DNA from: Euzebya rosea | GTDB taxonomy: Bacteria > Actinomycetota > Nitriliruptoria > Euzebyales > Euzebyaceae | Reading direction: 5' to 3' | Assembly: GCF_003073135.1 (NCBI RefSeq) | Contig: NZ_PGDQ01000008.1 | Span: 124,001-188,000, forward strand | DNA: 64,000 nt | Shown here: positions 4,799-61,272 of the stretch, piece after piece | Layout of the letters: each line of letters opens with the position of its first letter | Numbering within the stretch: position 1 is the first letter of the stretch | Program-made: the position numbers and the translations under genes | The notes under the pieces: generated by a model | Seen by the model: the letters and a program-made list of their open reading frames with translations, nothing else | The model's database searches: none | Told to the model about the DNA's origin: nothing

Positions 4799-4969
4799 AA
4801 CCAACCTCGTTCTGGGCTCGGGACCGTCGGGGCCGGGAGGCACCAGGTCGTTCGGCTGGTCTGTTCGACGCCGGCAGGGACTTCTCCTGCTCCGCCGGTT
4901 CAGCCCGACGCCATGACGTCCCCCCGATGCAGACGCGTGACGGGGCCCGAGGTCAGCGGGATCGACCGA

Positions 4970-6541
4970 TCACTCGCAGAACTGCAGGGCCCCGCCGCCG
5001 TAGAGGGAGGTCACCCGGGAGTCCGGGACGTTGCCGTCGAGGATGGCGTCGATCGGACCCCGGACGGTGTCGACGTAGCCGATGGGCGGGGGGAACTCCT
5101 CCGTCGACCCCTCGGCCAGGACGTAGTCGTGGGCGTGGATGGCCTCGAGCTCCCGGCTGGTGCTGCCGACCGTCACGCCCTCGGGGGTGGACAGCGCCCC
5201 GCCGTCGACGAACCACCCGTCGAAGAACATCTCGCCGACGACGGCTTCGGCGAACGTGGCGGTCAGCCCGTTGTCGAAGGTCACGTACCGCCCGGCGGGC
5301 CCGTCCGGACCGGCCAGCTCACAGGACGGCTGGACGCGTCCGGTGTCGTTGGTCGGTGCACCGAACTCCGCGATCATCGCCTCGAGGGCGACGTCGGCCG
5401 GCTGCCCGAAGTCGATGCCCCGGCCGAGCCCGTCACCCCGGAGCTCCACCGGTCCCGTCGGGGCGGATGCCCCACCACCGTCCGGACAGGTCTGCGCCCC
5501 GTCGACGCGTTCGTGGCTGACCATCGCGACCGGGCCGGCGACCAGCACCTCGGTGGGACGGGCGCACGCCAGGACGCCCTGGGTCGCCGCGGAGTCGACC
5601 TCGGGGTTGATGGCGAGGATGCCGCCGCCGTACTGGCCGACGACGGGGGCGGCGGCCAGGCCGTACGCCCATCCCTGCTCGTCGTACAGGTTGACCAGCG
5701 CCATCGGCCGAGGGGCGCCGTACCCGTCGCGCAGGACCTGGCGGAAGATGGCCGCCGCGGTTTCGTCTCGGGAGGATCCGGCCACCCGGCGGACCGGCGC
5801 GTCGACCTGCTGCATGGCTCCGGCGCTGATCGCCGAGGTCCCGCCCAGCACGGTCACGCGCCGGGGCGATCGACCCTCCAGCCACGAGGTGACGGAGGGG
5901 TGCAGCTCCTCGGTCGGGGTGAACAGGATCGGCCGACGGTCCCGGGCAGCGGCGGGGCCGGCGGCGACGCTGTCGGCCCACGCCGCGGTCGGGTTGCCGT
6001 CGGGGCCGAAGGCCCGCGCCAGGAAGACCTCGTAGGACGCGGGTGCGGCGTCGTCACCGAGGACGTAGTCGGCGACCGCGATCGCGGTCTCGTACCTGGT
6101 CGTTCCGGCGAGGCGGATGACGGGACGGTCGCCGGCCAGGGCAGCCAGCTGCGCCTCGACCTGCGGGTCGATGACGGCGGTGCCCCCGACGATGGTGAAC
6201 TCGCCCTGCGGATCGAGGACGACCCGGTCGAGCTCGGCCAGGGTGTCGTCGTCCAGCGGCTGGCCCGGACTGGCGAAGAAGATCGCCCCGAAGTCCGTCA
6301 GCGCGCTGGCGGCCAGCGCGTCAGCGAACGCGGCGTCGGAGACGATCACGCCCTTGTCGACGCCGAAGTCGTTGACGGCTCGTGACAGGTTCACCGCGTA
6401 CTCGGCCGGGGTGGCGCCGTCGATGCGGGCCACCGCGTCGGGCGTGTTGGAGAAGGGGGCGGGTGAGTACTGGGCGGCGGCGGGCACCGCTGACAGCACG
6501 AGCGCCAGGACGGTGACGAGCAGGGACGACGAGCGACGCAC
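4970..6541 (-). CDS. Secreted protein with type-2 cell-wall-binding repeats
   Basis: 523 residues with a Sec signal peptide ending AAAQ. Residues about 35-345 contain three type-2 cell-wall-binding (PF04122-like) modules, recognisable by paired motifs such as DAAFADALAAS, FTIVGGTAVI, IRLAGTTRYETA, VTVLGGTSAI and VRRVAGSSRDETA. This module anchors clostridial and actinobacterial proteins to the wall polymer. The C-terminal 160 residues form a separate domain with Cys residues near both ends, with no family I recognise. It is the only protein of the four repeat-bearing proteins here without an obvious enzyme domain. The AT-poor 170-base spacer downstream shows nothing notable. Confidence 0.85.
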   Translation of the reverse strand: MRRSSSLLVTVLALVLSAVPAAAQYSPAPFSNTPDAVARIDGATPAEYAVNLSRAVNDFGVDKGVIVSDAAFADALAASALTDFGAIFFASPGQPLDDDTLAELDRVVLDPQGEFTIVGGTAVIDPQVEAQLAALAGDRPVIRLAGTTRYETAIAVADYVLGDDAAPASYEVFLARAFGPDGNPTAAWADSVAAGPAAARDRRPILFTPTEELHPSVTSWLEGRSPRRVTVLGGTSAISAGAMQQVDAPVRRVAGSSRDETAAAIFRQVLRDGYGAPRPMALVNLYDEQGWAYGLAAAPVVGQYGGGILAINPEVDSAATQGVLACARPTEVLVAGPVAMVSHERVDGAQTCPDGGGASAPTGPVELRGDGLGRGIDFGQPADVALEAMIAEFGAPTNDTGRVQPSCELAGPDGPAGRYVTFDNGLTATFAEAVVGEMFFDGWFVDGGALSTPEGVTVGSTSRELEAIHAHDYVLAEGSTEEFPPPIGYVDTVRGPIDAILDGNVPDSRVTSLYGGGALQFCE

Positions 6542-51695: not shown

Positions 51696-51793
51696 CCCGG
51701 CCCGGACGCTCCCGACTCCGGATGCCCCTCGACGGTGGCGGCCTACAGTGGCCGCCACCGTCGTCGTGCCCCCGAAGGACTGATCCTGCCGTG

Positions 51794-52048
51794 ATGACCC
51801 CCGAGACGTGGATGGACCTCGTCAACTGGATGCTGCTCGCCCTCGGCGCGGCGATGGCCGGGGGGACCGGGGTGGCGCTGTTCCGCTTCCATCGGACGGG
51901 CCTGTTCCCGGGGCAGCCCATCGACGACGACGGCAACCCGGTGGGCACGCCGTCGATCCCCTCCGCCTGGGTCAAGGTCGCGGGGGGCGGCATCCTCGTC
52001 CTGTGGGGACTGGCCGGCCTTGCGTCCGGCGAGATCTTCGGATTCTGA
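51794..52048 (+). CDS. Hypothetical small membrane protein
   Basis: 84 residues with two membrane helices, about 7-30 (MDLVNWMLLALGAAMAGG) and 58-80 (VKVAGGGILVLWGLAGLAS), joined by a polar loop with Pro, Asp and Gly. An in-frame GTG directly precedes the ATG. No family recognised. Next to the DUF4349 gene on the same strand with about 100 bases between. Confidence 0.65.
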   Translation: MTPETWMDLVNWMLLALGAAMAGGTGVALFRFHRTGLFPGQPIDDDGNPVGTPSIPSAWVKVAGGGILVLWGLAGLASGEIFGF

Positions 52049-52294
52049 CGACCCGAGGGCAAGGACCCGCGACCGTTCGCACCCGGTTGACACAACGGCC
52101 GTTGGTACACCCCTTCCGCCCCGAACTGTCTCCCATGACGTCTTGCAGCGAAGGCGCCCCTCACGCACACTGCATGACAAGAGTTGACTAGTTCTCCACA
52201 CGATCAGTCCGAAATTTCGTCACGCGGGCAGGTACCGGTCGTTGGACAGGCAAGAACCTCTCGTCAACCTCCACTCGTCCCAGAGGAGTCAGTC

Positions 52295-52474
52295 ATGCGT
52301 CGCAAGGTCCTCGCGCTGTCAATCGCTGCCCTGTCCGCCCTCGCCATGGTGTCGCCGGCCGGCGCCGAGTCCCCCGTGGACATCGACTCCGATTCCGGCG
52401 GTCCGTACGTCTGCCTGAAGTCCCGCCCGTTGTGGGGCGAGGACCGCGTCTGCATCCGCACCTGGGACGCCTGA
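52295..52474 (+). CDS. Small secreted peptide with two cysteines
   Basis: 59 residues from an ATG with AGAGGAG upstream. A clear Sec signal peptide (about residues 1-24, ending AGA) leaves a mature peptide of about 35 residues with two Cys about 14 residues apart (YVCLKSRPLWGEDRVCIRTW), likely a single disulfide hairpin. No family recognised. The stop is 7 bases before the start of an ECF sigma factor gene, so the two are almost certainly co-transcribed. Confidence 0.75.
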   Translation: MRRKVLALSIAALSALAMVSPAGAESPVDIDSDSGGPYVCLKSRPLWGEDRVCIRTWDA

Positions 52475-52481
52475 TCCGTCG

Positions 52482-53531
52482 GTGACCGCCCTCCTCCCGC
52501 CGCAGCGGGGCACCACCTTCGCCGACGCGCTCCTGGGCGACCAGGACGCCCTCGACGAGCTGCTCCGCCGGCATCGTCCCTCCGTCGAGGCCGTCTGCTT
52601 CCGTCGCCTGCGTTCGCGCACCGACGCGGAGGACGCGGTGCAGGAGACGATGGTGCGGGGCATGCGGTCACTCCAGCACGTCGACGATCCGACGAGGCTG
52701 CGGAGCTACCTTTGCCGGATCGCCGAACGGGTGTGCCTGGACATGCTCCGAGCCGGGGCCAAGGCGATGCCCTACGTCGTCGACGACGTGCTCGACAGCT
52801 CCGACGGCACCGACGAACCCGAGACGGTCGCGCTGGAACGCGAACGGGCGCGCTTGGTCCACGAGACCCTGCAGGCCCTCAGCGAACGACAGGCCACGGC
52901 GCTGTGGATGCGCGACGCGCTGGGTGAACCGGTCCCCGTCGTCGCCGAGCGGCTCGGCGTGACCGAGGGATCGGCCCGGGTCCTGCTGACCCGGGCGCGC
53001 GCCAAGATGCGCGACGGCTGGGCCAAGGTCGCGGCGCTCCTGCCCGGCGCGGGCTTCAAGCTGCCGGCGTTCGCCGCGAAGACCGCCCACCTCGGCCCGA
53101 TCGCCGCGGTACCTGCGCTCGTGATCGTTGCGGCCGTGGCCGTGATCAGCCCGACCGCGTTCCAGGCCCTCCAGGACGACGGGCAGGTCATCCGGATGGC
53201 TCCGGGCAGCGTCGCCACCAAGGGCAGCGCCACCCAGGTGTCGGTCCCGATCGACTTCGGGTCCACCCCGACGTCCACGGATGTCGTCGTGATCAGCACG
53301 CCGGTGACGACCGCGCCGACCGTCGGCACCGGCACGCAGGCCACGGAGCAGGCCCGTCCGCGGCTGGACGTCGGCGTCGCCTCCGTCGGGCGGGAGCCCG
53401 ACACCGGCGAGGACGATCCGGTCACCGTCGGCGACGAGGACCTGCTCGAGGTCGGCGCCGGACTGGGCGAACAGGTCGAGGGGCTGGTCCGCGAGACCGG
53501 GCTGCCCGAGGTCATCGGCGTCGGCCGCTGA
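52482..53531 (+). CDS. ECF-type sigma factor with C-terminal membrane anchor
   Basis: 349 residues from GTG. Region 2 (about 25-92) has HRPSVEAVCFRRLRSRTDAEDAVQETMVRG; region 4 (about 125-180) has LSERQATALWMRDALGEPVPVVAERLGVTEGSARVLLTRARAKM. After a linker there is one membrane helix (about 206-224, VPALVIVAAVAVIS) and a 120-residue extracytoplasmic tail rich in Thr, Val, Asp and Glu. Sigma factor and sensor/anchor seem fused in one chain and no separate anti-sigma gene is adjacent. Probably membrane held until a signal releases it. Confidence 0.88.
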   Translation: MTALLPPQRGTTFADALLGDQDALDELLRRHRPSVEAVCFRRLRSRTDAEDAVQETMVRGMRSLQHVDDPTRLRSYLCRIAERVCLDMLRAGAKAMPYVVDDVLDSSDGTDEPETVALERERARLVHETLQALSERQATALWMRDALGEPVPVVAERLGVTEGSARVLLTRARAKMRDGWAKVAALLPGAGFKLPAFAAKTAHLGPIAAVPALVIVAAVAVISPTAFQALQDDGQVIRMAPGSVATKGSATQVSVPIDFGSTPTSTDVVVISTPVTTAPTVGTGTQATEQARPRLDVGVASVGREPDTGEDDPVTVGDEDLLEVGAGLGEQVEGLVRETGLPEVIGVGR

Positions 53532-53622: not shown

Positions 53623-54234
53623 GTGGATGGACTCGGACGGACCGGCACTGTGACCACGATCACCCACACGTCCCACGACGCCCTCGCCGTGGCGGCTCGC
53701 GCGGGCGACGACGGTGCCCTGCGCCTGCTGGTCGAGCGGTTCCGTCCGATGGTGCGGGCGATGGCACGGGAGCGCTTCATCCCCGGGGGTGACCACGACG
53801 ACCTGGTGCAGGAGGGCATGGTCGGCCTGTGGCACGCCATCCGTGACTTCGACCCGACCGCGGGCCCCTTCGGACCGTTCGCCCGGCTCTGCGTCGATCG
53901 CCAGATGTGGGCCGCGGTGACCAAGGCCAACCGGTACCGCCACCGTGTCCTGCACGACGCGTCGGTGTACGAGGACTGGATGGACATCGCCGTCACCGAG
54001 GAGGACCCGGCGGTCATCAGCGACTCCATGGAGTCCGTGGAGATGCTGCAGCGTCACATCCGCGCCACCCTCAGCAGCCTGGAGACGCAGGTCCTGCAGA
54101 TGTACGCCGCCGGCGCGTCCTACGACGACATCGCCGACCGCCTCGAGATGCACCGCAAGCGGATCGACAACGCCCTGCAGCGTGCCCGTCGGAAGATCTC
54201 GGAGTACCGCGACCGCGAGCTCGCCCTCGTCTGA
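53623..54234 (+). CDS. RNA polymerase sigma factor, SigH (Spo0H) type
   Basis: 203 residues from ATG; an in-frame GTG at 53650 is an equally possible start. Region 2 has ALRLLVERFRPMVRAMARERF and DHDDLVQEGMVGLWHAIRDFD; region 4 has LSSLETQVLQMYAAGASYDDIADRLEMHRKRIDNAL. The DLVQEGMxGLxxAIRDFD form is that of the SigH/Spo0H group rather than classical ECF. It follows the membrane-anchored ECF gene on the same strand with about 90 bases between, so coordinated control is possible. Confidence 0.88.
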   Translation: MDGLGRTGTVTTITHTSHDALAVAARAGDDGALRLLVERFRPMVRAMARERFIPGGDHDDLVQEGMVGLWHAIRDFDPTAGPFGPFARLCVDRQMWAAVTKANRYRHRVLHDASVYEDWMDIAVTEEDPAVISDSMESVEMLQRHIRATLSSLETQVLQMYAAGASYDDIADRLEMHRKRIDNALQRARRKISEYRDRELALV

Positions 54235-54292: not shown

Positions 54293-55972
54293 TCAGGTGC
54301 CGGTCAGCTCGGCGGGCAGCGGGAACCAGCGCAGCTGCTCGAAGTCGGCGGTGACCTCCGGCCAGCCCGGATCGGTCACGGTCGGCCCCCGGTCCAGGAT
54401 CTCCTCGGCGGTGCGCAGGTGCGAGGACAGGTCGACCTCACCCGTCGGCGCGGGGCGACGGTGCGCGGGGGCGAAGCCGTCTGGCCCGATGACGAGGTCG
54501 GTCAGCCGCTCGACACCGCGGTCGTCCGCCGCCCGATGGCGCCACAACCCGGTGCGGGCGTCGAAGCGGTAGTCGGGCAGCAGCGCCGCGCCCCGGTCGG
54601 CGACGAGCTCGACTGCCGACAGCACGTAGTCGAACTCGGCCTCGTCGATGAAGTAGTTGAAGTTGACCCTGACCCAGCCGGGCTTGATGCCCTCGCATCC
54701 CGTGCCGATCTCGCGTTCGAAAGCTCGGGAGGTGTCCAGGTCGATGCCGAGCAGCCGGTGGCCGTAGGGGCCGGCACACGAGCAGCCGCCCCGTGACTGG
54801 ATGCCGAACAGGTCGTTGAGCAACGCCACGACGTAGTTGTGGTGCAGGTAGCGACCGGCATCGCCGTGGCGGACCACGAAGGACACGATCGACAGCCGTT
54901 CGTGCTCGCGGTTGCCGAGGATCTCGATCCGCGGATGGGCGCACCAGCGCTCGATCGCGCGGGTGATGAACGCGGTCTCGCGACGGCGGATCTCCTCGGC
55001 CCCGACGGCGTCCTTGAGCGCGAACACCAGCCCGGCCCGGATGGCGCCGACGATGTCGGGGGTGCCGCCCTCCTCGCGGTGCTCGATGTCGTCGAGGTAG
55101 TGGTGGTCGTCGGGGTTGACGTACCAGACCGTCCCGCCGCCGGGCACCCCGGGGACCCGGTTGGTGAACAGGTCCTTGCGGGCCACGAGCAGGCCGGGGG
55201 TCCCGGGGCCGCCGACGAGCTTGTGGGGCGAGATCACGATGGCGTCGAAGTAGTGGTCGGGGTCACCGTCGTCGGGTGCCACGTCGATCGGCACGTACGG
55301 CGCGGCGGCCGCGTAGTCCCAGAACGACAGCGCACCGTGCTGGTGCAGCAACCGGCTGATCGCCTCGGTGTCGGAGGTGATGCCGGTCACGTTGGAGGCC
55401 GCAGAGAACGACCCGATCTTCAGCGGCCGGTCGGCGTGGTCGATCAGGGCCTTCTCGAGGTCGGCCAGGTCGATGCCCCCGTCGAGGTCCTCGTGGATCG
55501 TGACGACGTCGGCCACCGACTCACGCCACGGCAGGTCGTTGGAGTGGTGCTCGAACGGCCCGATGAACACGACCGGCCGTTCCTCGGGGGCGATCTCGAT
55601 CCGGTCAGCCCACTGCTCGGGGATGCGCAGGCCGAGGACGGTGACCAGGCGGTCGATCGCCCCGGTGGAGCCCGACCCGCAGAACAGCACCGCGTGGTCC
55701 TCGGTCGCGCCGACGCAGCGACGGATGATCTCCCGTGCGTCCTCGCGGAAGCGGGTCGTCTGCAGCCCGGTGCCGGAGGACTCGGTGTGGGTGTTGGCGT
55801 ACTTCGGCAGGACGTGCTCGCGGATCGCGTCCTCCACGAGGTCCAGCGCCCGCCCCGACGCGGTGTAGTCGGCGTACACGACGGGTCGATCCCCGTAGGG
55901 GCCGATGACCGTCTCGTCGCGTCCGATGACGCCGTCCCTGATGCGCGCCACCAGCGCTGCCCTGTCAGCCAT
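54293..55972 (-). CDS. Class V PLP-dependent aminotransferase/cysteine-desulfurase-like enzyme
   Basis: 559 residues, longer than usual desulfurases (about 400). N-terminal VVYADYTASGRALDLVEDAI and THTESSGTGLQTTRFREDA; the PLP lysine in VISPHKLVGGPGTPG; substrate region REEGGTPDIVGAIRAGL; and a Cys-rich loop SRGGCSCAGPYGHRLLGI where a desulfurase nucleophile could lie. The C-terminal 80 residues are an extra region of unknown role. Related long proteins are annotated as selenocysteine lyase or isopenicillin N epimerase-like; substrate not known. Confidence 0.87.
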   Translation of the reverse strand: MADRAALVARIRDGVIGRDETVIGPYGDRPVVYADYTASGRALDLVEDAIREHVLPKYANTHTESSGTGLQTTRFREDAREIIRRCVGATEDHAVLFCGSGSTGAIDRLVTVLGLRIPEQWADRIEIAPEERPVVFIGPFEHHSNDLPWRESVADVVTIHEDLDGGIDLADLEKALIDHADRPLKIGSFSAASNVTGITSDTEAISRLLHQHGALSFWDYAAAAPYVPIDVAPDDGDPDHYFDAIVISPHKLVGGPGTPGLLVARKDLFTNRVPGVPGGGTVWYVNPDDHHYLDDIEHREEGGTPDIVGAIRAGLVFALKDAVGAEEIRRRETAFITRAIERWCAHPRIEILGNREHERLSIVSFVVRHGDAGRYLHHNYVVALLNDLFGIQSRGGCSCAGPYGHRLLGIDLDTSRAFEREIGTGCEGIKPGWVRVNFNYFIDEAEFDYVLSAVELVADRGAALLPDYRFDARTGLWRHRAADDRGVERLTDLVIGPDGFAPAHRRPAPTGEVDLSSHLRTAEEILDRGPTVTDPGWPEVTADFEQLRWFPLPAELTGT

Positions 55973-56120
55973 GGCCGAAGGGTATCGGCCTGCCGGACCA
56001 GACGAGGGGAGCGCCCTGTCGACGTCGTCGGACCACCCCTCGTACCGACCGCATCACCCACCGGGGTCTTTCTCGACGGCGCCCTCGTGGCCCCCCACGG
56101 ATCTGCGAGGGTCTGTCGAC

Positions 56121-58385
56121 ATGACCAGAGTCACCTTCTCGATCCTGTCCACCGTCGCCCTCCTGATCGGCCTGCTCGCCGCACCCGCCGCCGCACAGGC
56201 ACCGGAACCCCCCGACTACGTCGTCGTCGACCCTGCCTTCGAGGCCCTGCCCGGCGCGCAGGCCTTCGCCGGCACCCTCGAGACCGACGGCGCCGAACAC
56301 GCCTACCGCATCGAGGTGCCCGACGACTGGAACGGCACACTGGTGCTCTACGCCCACGGCTTCGTCGGTCCCCAGCAGGCCGAGCTGGTCGTCCAGGACC
56401 CACCGCTGCGGCCCCTGTTCGTGCAGCAGGGCATCGCCTGGGCCGCCTCCAGCTACTCCGCCAACGGCTATGTCATCGACGGGCCGGTCGACCAGACCCA
56501 GGACCTCGCCGACCGCTTCCCCGAGCTGACGGGGGAGGACGCCCCCACGGCCACGATCATCCACGGGTTCTCCATGGGCGGCCACATCACCGGTGTGGCG
56601 CTCGAGCGCTACCCCGACGCCTACGTCGGGGCCCTCCCCGCCTGCGGGGTCATGGGTGACGTCGAGCTGTTCGAGTACTTCACCGACGTCAACCTCGTCG
56701 CCGGCGCCCTCGCCGGTGTCGACGTGCCGGTTCCCGGGGGGTTGCCGTTCCTCGGCGGTCCGGCCCAGCAGATCTCCGCGGCCCTCGGCCTGCAGACTGG
56801 GCTGACGACACCGGCCGGCGTCCAGTACGCCGACGTCGTCGAGGCACTCAGCGGTGGCGAGCGGCCGACGTTCGAGGAATCCCTGACCTTCTGGAACACC
56901 CTCGCCGCGGTGGACCTCGACGGTGAGGACGGGGACGCGCCGACGGTGCCGTTCCTGCAGGCCCTCTACGGAAACGCCCTGTCGGAGGGCATCCCGACCC
57001 CCGTCGGGGTCGAGGGAGTCTACGACAACGCCGACACCATCTACGGGTTCCCCAACGCCACCAGCGCCGAGCCGTCCGCCCAGGAGCAGGCCCTCAACGC
57101 CGCCGTGTCCCGGGTGAGCAACGACGGCGAGCCGCCCTTCCCCATCATCGAGGGCACCCCGCAGGTGCCGACCCTGTCGTTGCACACCACCGGCGACCTG
57201 TTCGTGCCGCTGCGCAACCAGGTCGTGTACGCCGAGGAGGTCGCGGCCAACGACCTGTCGGCCAACCTCGTCCAGCGGACCATCCGTGCACCCGGTCACT
57301 GCGACTTCACCGCCGAGGAGCTCGGCGGGGCGTTCGTGGACCTGCTGACGTGGATCCAGACCGGCACCGCACCTGCCGGCGAGGACCTGATCGACCCGGC
57401 GGTCCGCGCCGACCGCTCGTTGGGCTGCGCGTTCACCTCCGAGACGCGGCCGGGCATGCCCGCCTGTGCGCCGCCCACCGCGGGAGTCATCGACGGGACG
57501 GACGCGGTCGCCACCGCCATCGCGGTGTCGTCGGCACGACCCGCGGCATCCACCGCGGTGCTGGCCCGTGCCGACGAGTACGCCGACGCGCTCACCGGGT
57601 CGGCCCTCGCCGGCGCGCTCGACGCACCGCTGCTGCTGAACCCCAGCGACGCGCTCGACCCGACCGTGCTGGCCGAGCTGCAGCGCCTGGGCGTGGCCGA
57701 CGTCGTCCTGCTGGGCGGAACCGCCGCCCTGTCCTCGGCCGTCGAGCAGGCGCTCGCGGATGCGGACATCCAGGTCAGCCGGGTGGCCGGTACCAACCGG
57801 TTCGGCACGGCCGGGGCGGTGGCCGACGTGATCGCCAGCGCGACGGGCCAGCCGAGCGACGTCTTCGTCGCCGACGGCGGGGACTTCCCCGACGCGGTCG
57901 GCGTCGCTGGCCTCGCCGCATTCCTCGGGCAGCCCATCCTGCTGGTGGAGACCGACCGGATGCCCTCGGAGACCACCGACGCGATGACCGCGCTCGGCGA
58001 CCCGCAGGTGACCGTGCTCGGCGGTGTCGCCGCCGTGTCGGACGACGTCGCCGGCGACGCCCCACGGCTGGCGGGTGACACCCGCTACGGCACCTCTGCC
58101 GCGGTCGTCGACGCGTCCCGCAACGCCGGCCTGCGGATCAACCAGCCGTGGGTCGCGACCGGTGAGGCCTTCGCCGATGCGCTGGTGGCCGGGCCCGCTG
58201 CAGCAGCGGCAGGACAGGTGCTGGTCCTCGTCGACGGTGGCGACCTCGAGGCGTCAGCGGAGTCCACGGCCGTGCTCGAGGGCCTGTCCGGCCTCGTGCA
58301 GGGTGTGACCGTGGTGTCCTCCGGCGGGGCGGTCACCGACGGCGCGGTCACCGCGCTCGAGGCGACGGTGGCGCCAGCCGGCTGA
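56121..58385 (+). CDS. Secreted alpha/beta hydrolase with type-2 cell-wall-binding repeats
   Basis: 754 residues. A Sec signal peptide ends AAAQ. Residues 60-450 form an alpha/beta hydrolase: LVLYAHGFVGPQQAEL, nucleophile Ser in IIHGFSMGGHITG, and candidate acid and His in TLSLHTTGDLFVPL and APGHCDFTAEE. Residues about 485-754 contain three cell-wall-binding modules (ARADEYADALTGSALAG, VLLGGTAALSSAVEQ, SRVAGTNRFGTAG and similar). Probably a wall-anchored esterase or lipase. Confidence 0.9.
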   Translation: MTRVTFSILSTVALLIGLLAAPAAAQAPEPPDYVVVDPAFEALPGAQAFAGTLETDGAEHAYRIEVPDDWNGTLVLYAHGFVGPQQAELVVQDPPLRPLFVQQGIAWAASSYSANGYVIDGPVDQTQDLADRFPELTGEDAPTATIIHGFSMGGHITGVALERYPDAYVGALPACGVMGDVELFEYFTDVNLVAGALAGVDVPVPGGLPFLGGPAQQISAALGLQTGLTTPAGVQYADVVEALSGGERPTFEESLTFWNTLAAVDLDGEDGDAPTVPFLQALYGNALSEGIPTPVGVEGVYDNADTIYGFPNATSAEPSAQEQALNAAVSRVSNDGEPPFPIIEGTPQVPTLSLHTTGDLFVPLRNQVVYAEEVAANDLSANLVQRTIRAPGHCDFTAEELGGAFVDLLTWIQTGTAPAGEDLIDPAVRADRSLGCAFTSETRPGMPACAPPTAGVIDGTDAVATAIAVSSARPAASTAVLARADEYADALTGSALAGALDAPLLLNPSDALDPTVLAELQRLGVADVVLLGGTAALSSAVEQALADADIQVSRVAGTNRFGTAGAVADVIASATGQPSDVFVADGGDFPDAVGVAGLAAFLGQPILLVETDRMPSETTDAMTALGDPQVTVLGGVAAVSDDVAGDAPRLAGDTRYGTSAAVVDASRNAGLRINQPWVATGEAFADALVAGPAAAAAGQVLVLVDGGDLEASAESTAVLEGLSGLVQGVTVVSSGGAVTDGAVTALEATVAPAG

Positions 58386-58455
58386 CCAGGGAGGGCCTGA
58401 CCACGAAACGGTGAGGACAGCGAAGGACCGGGCGCGGCGGGATTACCCTCCGCAG

Positions 58456-61272
58456 ATGCCGAAGAGCCGAGTCCTCGCTGTCCTCGCCGTGCTCGCCTGC
58501 GTGGGTGCCCTCGCCAGCCCCGTGCGCGCCCAGGACCCACCGCAGGCGTACGAGCGCACCCCGGGGATGCTGGAGACCACGACGGGTCCCGACGAGACCT
58601 ACCCGGTCACCCTCGACCACGACATCTGGGTGCCGGAGGGGGCGTCGGCCGCCGACCCGCGGCCGGCGATGGTGATCGCCCACGGGTTCGGCAACAGCAA
58701 GGACGTCGGCGAGGTCACCACCCTGGCGGCCTTCTTCGCCGGCAAGGGGTACGTGGTGATCGCCAGCACCCATCAGGGGTTCGGGCAGTCCTCCGGTTGC
58801 GTGGCGCTTGACTCGGTGGACTACGACGCCCGCAACGTCAGCCGGCTGATCGACCTGCTGGCCGCCCGCGACGACGTGCTGATGGACGCCCCCGGCGACC
58901 CACGGGTCGGCATGGCCGGTGGCTCCTACGGCGGCGGGCACCAGGGGCTGGTCGCGGCCACCGACCCTCGGCTGGACGCCATCGCCCCTGCCCGCACGTG
59001 GAACTCCCTGCAGTTCTCACTCGTGCCCAACAACCTGATCGGGGACGGCGGCACGTCCGACCTCGAGCACTACGAGCAGGGGGTCTTCAAGTCGACGTGG
59101 TCCTCGTTGTTCACGACGGTGGCAGCCACGCAGCCTGCGATGGGCAACGGCGGCTGCGACCCCGTGACCCAGCAGACCCTCTACCCGGGCCAGCCGCCCT
59201 GCCCGGGGTTCGACCCGATGGTCTGCCCGATCTTCGCGAGCCTGTCCACCACGGGTGACGTGACCGCCGAGCAGCGTGCGTTCGTCGCCAGGTCCAGCGT
59301 GGCCAACGTCATCGACGACGTGACGGTGCCCGTGCTGCTGACGCAGGGCCAGTCCGACACCCTGTTCACGCCGGTCGAGGCCACCGCCACGTTCGAGGCG
59401 CTCCGGGCCGCCGGCAACGACGACGTGTTCATGCTGTGGAACTGGGGCGGGCACGGCTACGCCCCGCGGCCCGGTGAGGGCGAGCCCTACAACAGCGCCT
59501 ACGACGACTCGCCCGAGGCGCAGGAGGCCTTCCGGGCCACGACCTACGCCGACCGCATCGGCCGCTTCTTCGACCACTACCTGCGGGGCATCGGCCATCC
59601 CGGTCCACGGTTCAGCGTCTTCCGGGACTGGGTCGAGTACTCGGTCCCCACGGTGGGGGACCGTCCCGTCGGCAACGCCGACGCCGCCTACGCCACGGTC
59701 GGCCGCGGACCCGCCGAACCCGGGTTCGCCGGTGGCGCCGGAACCAGCTACCGGCTGACCGACGAGGGGCTCGAGCCGATCGGTGCGGGCCCCCACACCG
59801 ACGACGCGCCGATCCTCTCCGCGACACTCCTCAACCCACCCAACGGCCTGCCGGCCGCACACTCCGAAACCCCCAACTTCACCGACGAGGGGCAGCCGGG
59901 CGCCGGCATCCCACCGTCGGAGGTCCCGGGCCAGCACGTCGCGCTGGACACGCCGCCGTTCACCGCACCGGCAGAGGTCGTGGGCATCCCCACGCTTCGT
60001 CTGCACGTCGCCAACAGCAACGGCCGTGACGCGGTGCTGTTCACCAAGCTCTACGACGTCGCCCCCGACGGGACGGCCACGCTGATCAAGCGCATGGTCG
60101 CGGCCAGCCGGATCCCCGCGGACCTGCTGCCCGGCATGGTCGAGCTCCGCCTGCCCGCGGCCGTCCACCGCTTCGAGACGGGGCACGCGGCCCGTCTCGT
60201 CGTGGCGACCACCGACGACAGCTACCGCAACGCCCCCGTCGCCGATCGGATCACCCTGTCCACCGATGGGACGGTGCCCTCGATCCTGCGCCTGCCGCTG
60301 GTCGGCGGCGACACGGTCGGCCGGATCGCCGGTGACGACCGGATCGCCACGGCCGTCGCGTTGTCGGAGGAGGCGTTCGGGGAGGCCCGCGACGCAGTCC
60401 TGGTGAACGCCGACGCCTTCCCCGACGCGCTGACGGCCGGCCCGCTGGCCGCCGCCGTCGAGGGTCCGACCCTGCTGACCTCGGGCGCAGCCCTCGACCC
60501 CCGAGTCGCCGACGACCTGTACCGGCTGGGAGTCGACCGCGTCCACCTCGTCGGCGGCACGGGTGTGCTGGGCGACGCCGTGCGCACGTCCCTGGAAGGC
60601 ATGGGCATCGAGGTCGTGCGCCTGGCCGGCAGCAACCGCATCACCACAGCAGGCATCGTGGCCGACCGCATCGCGGCGCTGACCGGGGGACCGGCACCCA
60701 CGGCGATCGTGGCCCGCGCCGACGACTTCGCCGACGCCCTGGCCGCCGGCGGGCTGGCCGTGGTCGGGGGCGGGGTCGGCGGGACCGCCCAGCGAACGCC
60801 GGTCCCGATCCTGCTGGTCGACGACGCCAGCGTGGCCGAGGTGGCGCGCATCGTGCAGCGCGTGACCCTCGCCGACGCCCCCCTCGTGGTGGCTGGTGGC
60901 GCCCGGGCGGTCTCCACCGCCGCCGCCGACGGCCTCGGCCGTGCCGTCCGACGGCTGGCCGGCGCCGACCGCTACCAGACCGCGGTCGCCCTGGCGTCGG
61001 CGGCCACCGACGCCGGGGCCGGACTCGACATGCTGCTGCTCGCATCGGGTGTCCGCTTCCCCGACGCCCTCGCGGGGGTGCCGGCCGCCGCGGCGATGGG
61101 CGGGATCGTGCTCATCGTGCCGCCCGACGGCCTGGCCGACGCGTCCTCCGGGGCCGGGTTCCTGCGGGCCAGCGCCACCGTCGCCGACCGCGCGGCGCTG
61201 ATCGGCGGCACCGCCGTCCTGCCCGACGAGCTGCGCAGCAGCATCGGGCCCCTGCTGGTCGCCGAGGAGTAG
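58456..61272 (+). CDS. Secreted CocE/S15-type acyl hydrolase with type-2 cell-wall-binding repeats
   Basis: 938 residues. Signal peptide ends VRAQ. The hydrolase has ADPRPAMVIAHGFGNSKD, nucleophile Ser in GMAGGSYGGGHQG, and the acid/His region LLTQGQSDTLFTPVEA and WNWGGHGYAPRP. A jelly-roll domain of the X-Pro dipeptidyl-peptidase/CocE kind (about 480-620) follows, including GIPTLRLHVANSNGRDAVLF. The last 300 residues are cell-wall-binding modules (LPLVGGDTVGRIAGDDRIAT, VHLVGGTGVLGDAV, RRLAGADRYQTAVALAS). It follows the preceding hydrolase gene by 70 bases; the pair probably shares a transcript or a recent duplication of design. Confidence 0.9.
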   Translation: MPKSRVLAVLAVLACVGALASPVRAQDPPQAYERTPGMLETTTGPDETYPVTLDHDIWVPEGASAADPRPAMVIAHGFGNSKDVGEVTTLAAFFAGKGYVVIASTHQGFGQSSGCVALDSVDYDARNVSRLIDLLAARDDVLMDAPGDPRVGMAGGSYGGGHQGLVAATDPRLDAIAPARTWNSLQFSLVPNNLIGDGGTSDLEHYEQGVFKSTWSSLFTTVAATQPAMGNGGCDPVTQQTLYPGQPPCPGFDPMVCPIFASLSTTGDVTAEQRAFVARSSVANVIDDVTVPVLLTQGQSDTLFTPVEATATFEALRAAGNDDVFMLWNWGGHGYAPRPGEGEPYNSAYDDSPEAQEAFRATTYADRIGRFFDHYLRGIGHPGPRFSVFRDWVEYSVPTVGDRPVGNADAAYATVGRGPAEPGFAGGAGTSYRLTDEGLEPIGAGPHTDDAPILSATLLNPPNGLPAAHSETPNFTDEGQPGAGIPPSEVPGQHVALDTPPFTAPAEVVGIPTLRLHVANSNGRDAVLFTKLYDVAPDGTATLIKRMVAASRIPADLLPGMVELRLPAAVHRFETGHAARLVVATTDDSYRNAPVADRITLSTDGTVPSILRLPLVGGDTVGRIAGDDRIATAVALSEEAFGEARDAVLVNADAFPDALTAGPLAAAVEGPTLLTSGAALDPRVADDLYRLGVDRVHLVGGTGVLGDAVRTSLEGMGIEVVRLAGSNRITTAGIVADRIAALTGGPAPTAIVARADDFADALAAGGLAVVGGGVGGTAQRTPVPILLVDDASVAEVARIVQRVTLADAPLVVAGGARAVSTAAADGLGRAVRRLAGADRYQTAVALASAATDAGAGLDMLLLASGVRFPDALAGVPAAAAMGGIVLIVPPDGLADASSGAGFLRASATVADRAALIGGTAVLPDELRSSIGPLLVAEE

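Follow-up and report, generated by a model that had tools for sequence, protein, structure and literature searches.

The locus analysed here raises the question of how an ECF sigma factor that carries its own membrane-anchored tail is regulated when no anti-sigma gene adjoins it, and whether a small secreted protein encoded immediately beside it takes part in this regulation. Control of ECF sigma factors without an anti-sigma gene is poorly known, and many of those described below, from several actinobacterial families, carry a candidate partner of this kind. The window, i.e. the whole 64,000-nt stretch of Euzebya rosea DNA that was analysed, contains one such pair of genes (Table 1).

Anatomy of the gene pair

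The upstream gene encodes a mini-protein composed of a signal peptide (residues 1-24, MRRKVLALSIAALSALAMVSPAGA) with a cleavage-like site between AGA and ES, and a 35-residue mature part (ESPVDIDSDSGGPYVCLKSRPLWGEDRVCIRTWDA) that contains both cysteines, Cys40 and Cys53, in a C-x12-C arrangement. Both this signal peptide and the membrane helix of the sigma factor were called from hydropathy and charge only. Comparison of the host with its congener G003 gave a dN/dS of 0.28 for the mini-protein, which identifies it as a coding gene. No Pfam or NCBIfam family matched the 59-aa product, Pfam likewise had no match for two-Cys mini-proteins of this kind in general, and no similar entry was found among the solved structures searched with the mini-proteins. 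At 46-81 aa and without a family model, such genes are likely to be missed by annotation. An AF2 single-sequence model of the window mini-protein (pLDDT about 75) places strands at residues 38-43 and 50-55, so that Cys40 and Cys53 would face each other on adjacent strands; according to this model the mature mini-protein is probably a disulfide-closed beta-hairpin.

The product of the downstream gene matched PF04542 (region 2, 5e-16) and PF08281 (region 4, 9e-12), both above the gathering cut-off, and its match to TIGR02937 also exceeded the cut-off of that model; no region-3 family was among its Pfam matches. The core ends near residue 180 and is followed by a short basic linker and the helix, whose best hydrophobic segment spans residues 204-222 (Kyte-Doolittle 2.59). 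The only cysteines of the protein are Cys39, Cys78 and Cys85. Since all of them sit in the core, an HxxxCxxC zinc finger is lacking. Pfam detected neither an anti-sigma domain, including FecR-like ones, in the sigma factor nor any known domain, including a carbohydrate-binding ectodomain, in its tail. Between host and G003, dN/dS amounted to 0.04 in the core, 0.31 in the linker and helix and 0.48 in the initial tail segment, and to 0.14 in the last 60 residues, indicating that the end of the tail is constrained although it carries no known domain. The quality of a single-sequence structure model of the sigma factor was too low for use.

These data bear out the anatomy described in the first-pass annotation, namely a signal-peptide-bearing two-Cys product of 59 residues ending 7 bases before an ECF gene (coordinates and frames are correct) and a sigma factor with a C-terminal membrane helix and an external part. 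The helix spans residues about 204-224, and about 125 external residues follow it. The adjacent anti-sigma gene that it had reported as missing is indeed absent: the Pfam-scanned neighbours (a nitroreductase, a SigH-like sigma factor, a class-V aminotransferase and CWB2 hydrolases) include no anti-sigma factor, and a 108-aa ORF upstream of the pair (51722-52048) had no Pfam match. At the level of sequence, the genetic linkage of the two genes, the coding nature of the mini-protein gene and the anatomy of the sigma factor are thereby established.

At the 3' end of the mini-protein gene, 55 consecutive bases (52416-52470) are the same in G003, while third positions elsewhere diverge freely; this may reflect either an additional constraint at the nucleotide level (coupling, regulatory site) or a recent exchange. 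When an RNA switch was sought between the end of the mini-protein gene and the start of the sigma gene, the predicted fold was no better than those of shuffled sequences.

Table 1. Coordinates of the gene pair, its parts and adjoining elements in the window.
Feature	Position	Strand	Basis or remark
Intergenic block, near-identical in G003; probable operon promoter/leader	52170..52240	+	Alignment
Shine-Dalgarno sequence AGAGGAG of the mini-protein gene	52280..52286	+	Sequence; AGGAG retained in G003
Secreted mini-protein gene	52295..52474	+	ATG 52295, stop ends 52474, 59 aa
ECF sigma factor gene, membrane-anchored C-terminal tail, 349 aa	52482..53531	+	GTG 52482; PF04542, PF08281
Sigma regions 2 to 4, residues 27-177	52560..53012	+	Pfam; dN/dS 0.04 for residues 1-180
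Transmembrane helix, residues about 204-224	53091..53153	+	Hydropathy, Cys positions
External tail, about 125 residues, Cys-free; Thr/Ser/Pro part, then C-terminal part	53154..53528	+	dN/dS
Possible copy of the tail motif, QARPRLDVGVASVGREPDTGE	53346..53408	+	Top-scoring held-out tail, suggestive; motif from another order
SigH-like sigma gene, neighbour outside the conserved module	53650..54234	+	Adjoins the pair in G003, not in G050

Recurrence of the pair in other actinobacteria

Among the three congeners compared, G003 has the two genes in an unchanged arrangement, spacing included (identity 86% for the mini-protein and 84% for the sigma factor), and the search of G001 and G002 gave an orthologue of neither gene. 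In G050, a member of another family of the same class, the nearest sigma factor (35% over residues 13-323) is likewise membrane-tailed, and a 68-aa secreted protein ending in ...GACAKAHVMWVKVDRTCVWVGWPPG is encoded downstream, overlapping the sigma stop codon. Alignment of the mature parts of the G050 and window mini-proteins revealed C-x-K, W, D-R-x-C and W in common; a regular expression for this C-K-W-DR-C-W-type pattern had no further match among the loci then collected. Matches beyond G003 in a search with the single peptide were mostly noise, several apparent small ORFs dissolving on inspection, and a whole-sigma scan of genome contigs returned mainly TIGR02960/SigX5-like and other ECF factors that are alike only in regions 2 and 4 and were left out as relatives.

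Two surveys, one of 397 genomes of the phylum and a second of 148 genomes of the order to which G760 belongs, relied on similarity to query alignments, and the counts given here are loci found, not phylum totals. The phylum survey yielded further membrane-tailed ECF factors without a zinc finger, and a check for the zinc-finger pattern in the surveyed tails found none. An overlapping two-Cys mini-protein gene lies downstream of a membrane-tailed ECF gene in G311 (L383), and another such pair was found in G760. In the G760 order, 15 distinct sigma factors (L375, L377-L386, including the G311 gene, L394, L396, L397 and L400; L376 is nearly identical to L375) are directly followed by a gene for a secreted protein of 46-81 aa whose mature part contains two Cys. 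The mini-protein start overlaps the sigma stop by 4 bp at 14 of the 15 loci, the remaining one (L396) having a gap of 158 bp, and none of the 15 sigma tails contains a cysteine. The mini-proteins of this order have a common hairpin-like core, roughly C-[VL]-x-[VI]-x3-[DN]-[VLI]-G-x-C-x3-P, and those of L375 and L376 differ mainly in third positions (dN/dS 0.13). The possibility, raised in the first-pass annotation, that homologous sigma genes lack the small gene as a neighbour is thus contradicted by the neighbourhood search, the pair being present in G003, G050 and the G760 order. The mini-protein is dispensable to the membrane-tailed architecture as such, since 12 of the 27 membrane-tailed sigma factors in the G760-order clade lack one.

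Larger secreted proteins follow other membrane-tailed, zinc-finger-less ECF genes (L301/L333, L306, L325, L280, L260 and L267). The products are S8-protease-like at L301/L306, 442 aa long at L325 and secreted proteins at L260, L267 and L280, and the adjoining of such sigma factors to secreted products is a wider habit.

Four further membrane-tailed ECF factors are encoded in the host (L175, L180, L181 and L182); L184 and L187 were also flagged by hydropathy and then rejected. Unlike the Cys-free tail of the window sigma factor, the tails of these paralogues end in a two-Cys segment, e.g. ...FCELVDPVPDALVDCRVAN and ...ACDVVAVAPDPVSCHNER. Tails ending in such a C-x7-12-C segment were found at L171, L172, L175, L180, L181, L182, L327 and in a sigma factor on contig C25 of G050, which has its Cys pair in the tail only. 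Small secreted ORFs with a C-terminal Cys pair are convergent with the sigma gene and stop about 20 bp or less from its 3' end at L180, its G003 orthologue L172, and L181. A convergent secreted Cys-pair ORF beside a sigma factor with a Cys-pair-ended tail recurs at L266 and L327, giving five convergent loci in total. Cys-less tails thus go with mini-proteins encoded on the same strand and Cys-ended tails with convergent ones. Homology between the Cys segment of the paralogue tails and the free mini-protein is unsupported, as 109 to 394 of 500 shuffled sequences scored at least as high.

The convergent genes L180:1265-1423 and L172:2965-3126 lack a Shine-Dalgarno sequence. About 23 nt upstream of the ATG, both share a conserved (G/C)GAACC that resembles the ECF -35 element of a leaderless gene; they are possible targets of the adjacent sigma factor. 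On contig C25 of G050, two ECF genes lie in tandem (L239:3858-4685 and 4829-6094), the product of the first being helix-less and that of the second having a membrane tail that ends in a Cys pair.

As a control for chance occurrence, host sequence was filtered for ORFs that begin like a signal peptide and have a Cys pair at the C-terminal end. The mini-protein gene at 52295 was the sole match in the 64-kb window. The same filter gave L180, L181 and one implausible ORF in 177 kb around 41 other host sigma loci, and one convincing case (L251) in 400 kb of other host sequence. This last ORF (L251:15761-15913, minus strand, contig C6 of G000) encodes a 50-aa secreted two-Cys protein upstream of a gene for a Cys-rich protein, and no sigma gene was found near it.

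In a tree of sigma cores, the window, G003 and G050 proteins form one clade (97/97) separate from the G760-order clade (99/99); mini-protein-linked sigma factors are hence split over at least two distinct, well-supported sets, and those with a convergent mini-protein gene belong to further sets. Scored against the G760-order model, the window mini-protein tops most shuffles in which the cysteines were kept fixed, albeit not significantly (37 of 500 were as good), so that, apart from the Cys pair, its likeness to the G760-order proteins is weak. The history is either that of an ancient pair with a fast-evolving mini-protein or that of an association with repeated origins, and each of the two speaks for functional coupling. 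Judged from gene arrangement, recurrence in several sigma clades and in three gene orders points to such a coupling.

A tail motif, P-x5-GP-x3-G-x-DP, was present in 10 of the 15 mini-protein-linked tails of the G760 order, mostly about 40 residues from the end, whereas none of 22 membrane tails without a mini-protein scored near (Fisher p=9e-6, a value that is optimistic because related rows are not independent). Because the motif instances were selected by eye from this order ahead of scoring, discovery and testing of the association partly share one data set; in a leave-one-out scoring, 9 of the 10 were significant. With this G760-order motif, the window tail scored 5.1 (shuffle p=0.056) and the congener tail gave p=0.12. 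Eleven mini-protein-less sigma factors that group within the G760-order clade have low-complexity tails, as if motif and mini-protein had been lost together. The recurrence of the pairing across families and sigma lineages and the co-occurrence of the tail motif argue that mini-protein and external tail probably act together.

Candidate mechanism and alternatives

We tentatively favour a two-gene signalling module in which a membrane-held sigma factor would be freed by proteolysis and the secreted mini-protein would be the sensing or gating partner of its tail. The sigma core would lie inside and the tail outside, with membrane tethering keeping the sigma factor off promoters until regulated proteolysis of the tail or the helix sets it free. 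Made together with the sigma factor and exported, the mini-protein would close through its Cys pair into a hairpin that docks, on the outer side of the membrane, onto the constrained stretch of the tail. It would most likely be both a sensing and a gating partner, in the role that an RseB-type co-regulator or an anti-sigma ectodomain has elsewhere, and its stimulus-driven loss, reduction or displacement would expose the tail to cleavage. Cognate anti-sigma genes usually occupy the position just downstream of an ECF gene, overlapping it by 4 bp. Occupation of this position by the mini-protein gene, together with the lack of an anti-sigma gene, is the reason to prefer a gating partner over an autocrine ligand or a mere target; in the window, where the mini-protein gene comes first, it may be less tightly coupled to the sigma factor in stoichiometry. 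Taken beyond the window, it is plausible, if still short of likely, that such membrane-tethered one-protein sigma factors, with a tail that is the receptor for, or is gated by, a secreted disulfide hairpin whose translation is coupled to theirs, replace the anti-sigma factor, and that this arrangement arose or was rewired in several ECF lineages, with the Cys-pair segment fused to the tail in the paralogues.

The mini-protein might instead be a product of the sigma regulon only, e.g. a secreted protein with an effector, antimicrobial or envelope role, and make no contact with the tail. This is rather unlikely, yet it stays alive because of the large secreted proteins encoded after several membrane-tailed ECF factors (L301/L306, L325, L260, L267 and L280), and the convergent L180/L172 copies, with their ECF-like -35 just before the ATG, resemble targets. 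However, the tail motif tracks the mini-protein (10/15 versus 0/22), and a correlation between gene strand and tail cysteines is not expected for unrelated target genes. Moreover, the mini-protein gene lies upstream of the sigma gene in the host and downstream with an overlap in the other order, which implies that the two form one expression unit.

The first-pass annotation had suggested a ligand-receptor or autocrine circuit. Its core, that the mini-protein belongs with membrane-tailed ECF factors, is upheld by the recurrence of the pair and by the tail motif; the autocrine role is not, a gating partner fitting at least equally well. An autocrine or quorum ligand, i.e. a secreted disulfide peptide that accumulates outside, binds the sigma tail and switches the sigma factor on, would agree with a short, secreted, disulfide-type product paired with a receptor-like membrane tail, and with mini-proteins being more variable than the sigma cores. 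Nevertheless, translation coupled through a 4-bp overlap is typical of a stoichiometric partner and not of a diffusible pheromone, and the hydrophobic hairpin core (CVAV...GVC) is not hypervariable but conserved from family to family. Furthermore, the genes flanking the pair in the window gave no sign of an exporter or processing protease dedicated to the mini-protein. Altogether, we regard the ligand role as unlikely.

Thiol or redox sensing, in which the Cys pair of the mini-protein or of the other tails would sense extracytoplasmic oxidation and thereby control the sigma factor, could account for the Cys pair being the sole invariant feature of the mini-proteins and for paralogue tails that themselves end in a C-x7-12-C segment. 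It appears improbable, as the simplest role for two cysteines in a secreted hairpin is a structural one, and the hydrophobic core and Pro residues are also conserved. A chance neighbour or mis-called ORF, conceivable for a small ORF in a GC-rich genome, is hardly credible and already contradicted by the neighbourhood survey, given the conservation of the pair in G003, G050 and many families and its coding-type substitutions.

Relation to known systems and to neighbouring genes

In PMC8999054 and PMC5826349, the actinobacterial groups ECF48, ECF52 and ECF53 (SCO4117 type) are described as having a C-terminal membrane-spanning extension of one to two helices that replaces a separate anti-sigma factor. 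According to PMC8999054, a ZAS zinc-finger domain lies between sigma factor and helix in these groups, the ECF52 ectodomain is Pro-rich with a carbohydrate-binding part, and release by proteolysis, reviewed for IutY, is expected for them. As far as these descriptions go, the window sigma factor resembles the three groups in its C-terminal helix extension (one helix, by hydropathy only) and differs in that it lacks a zinc finger, its tail is short and its candidate partner is encoded separately as a secreted peptide, for which these descriptions have no counterpart; unlike ECF52, it has no match to a carbohydrate-binding ectodomain. IutY (ECF243), as presented in PMC8999054, is a sigma factor fused to a FecR-like anti-sigma factor that acts in Gram-negative cell-surface siderophore signalling through stepwise intramembrane proteolysis. 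The window sigma factor is, going by that account, likewise membrane-anchored, but it contains no fused FecR-like part, and the small disulfide peptide is present here only.

In the RseA-RseB/sigma-E system, a secreted protein shields from proteolysis what a membrane-held sigma system exposes outside the cytoplasm, which likens it to the mini-protein by analogy only; RseB is far larger and acts on a separate anti-sigma factor, and no homology was seen. Two-Cys peptide pheromones of Gram-positive bacteria are also short, secreted and of the disulfide type, and are encoded beside a membrane-bound regulator. These pheromones, however, act on kinases or transporters, whereas the partner here would be a sigma factor with its own ectodomain, and the mini-proteins match no family. 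A literature search, in which subscription journals were thinly covered and the main ECF classification paper lay outside the results, returned no description of a secreted mini-protein partner of such sigma factors. Recurrence of the pairing in many actinobacteria that are only distantly related suggests an undescribed route for passing an outside signal to genes. If true, the pair would constitute a compact two-part genetic switch from outside to inside, and as the pairing names the mini-protein, the tail segment and both natural pairs and non-pairs, the question is testable.

The first-pass annotation had further considered the SigH-type neighbour as a potential target of the pair. This was not substantiated: the gene adjoins the pair in the congener only, the nearest SigH-like gene of G050 sits on a different contig from the pair, and a shared promoter element was not demonstrated. 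A pattern built from the sites of the mini-protein operon and the SigH-like gene matched there only, but about two matches were also expected, and the conserved block upstream of the pair is single-copy in the host genome. The pattern is therefore uninformative as to a promoter shared by the two. Further downstream in the window (55905-61272), two adjoining genes encode secreted hydrolase-type proteins with three CWB2 cell-wall-binding repeats each.
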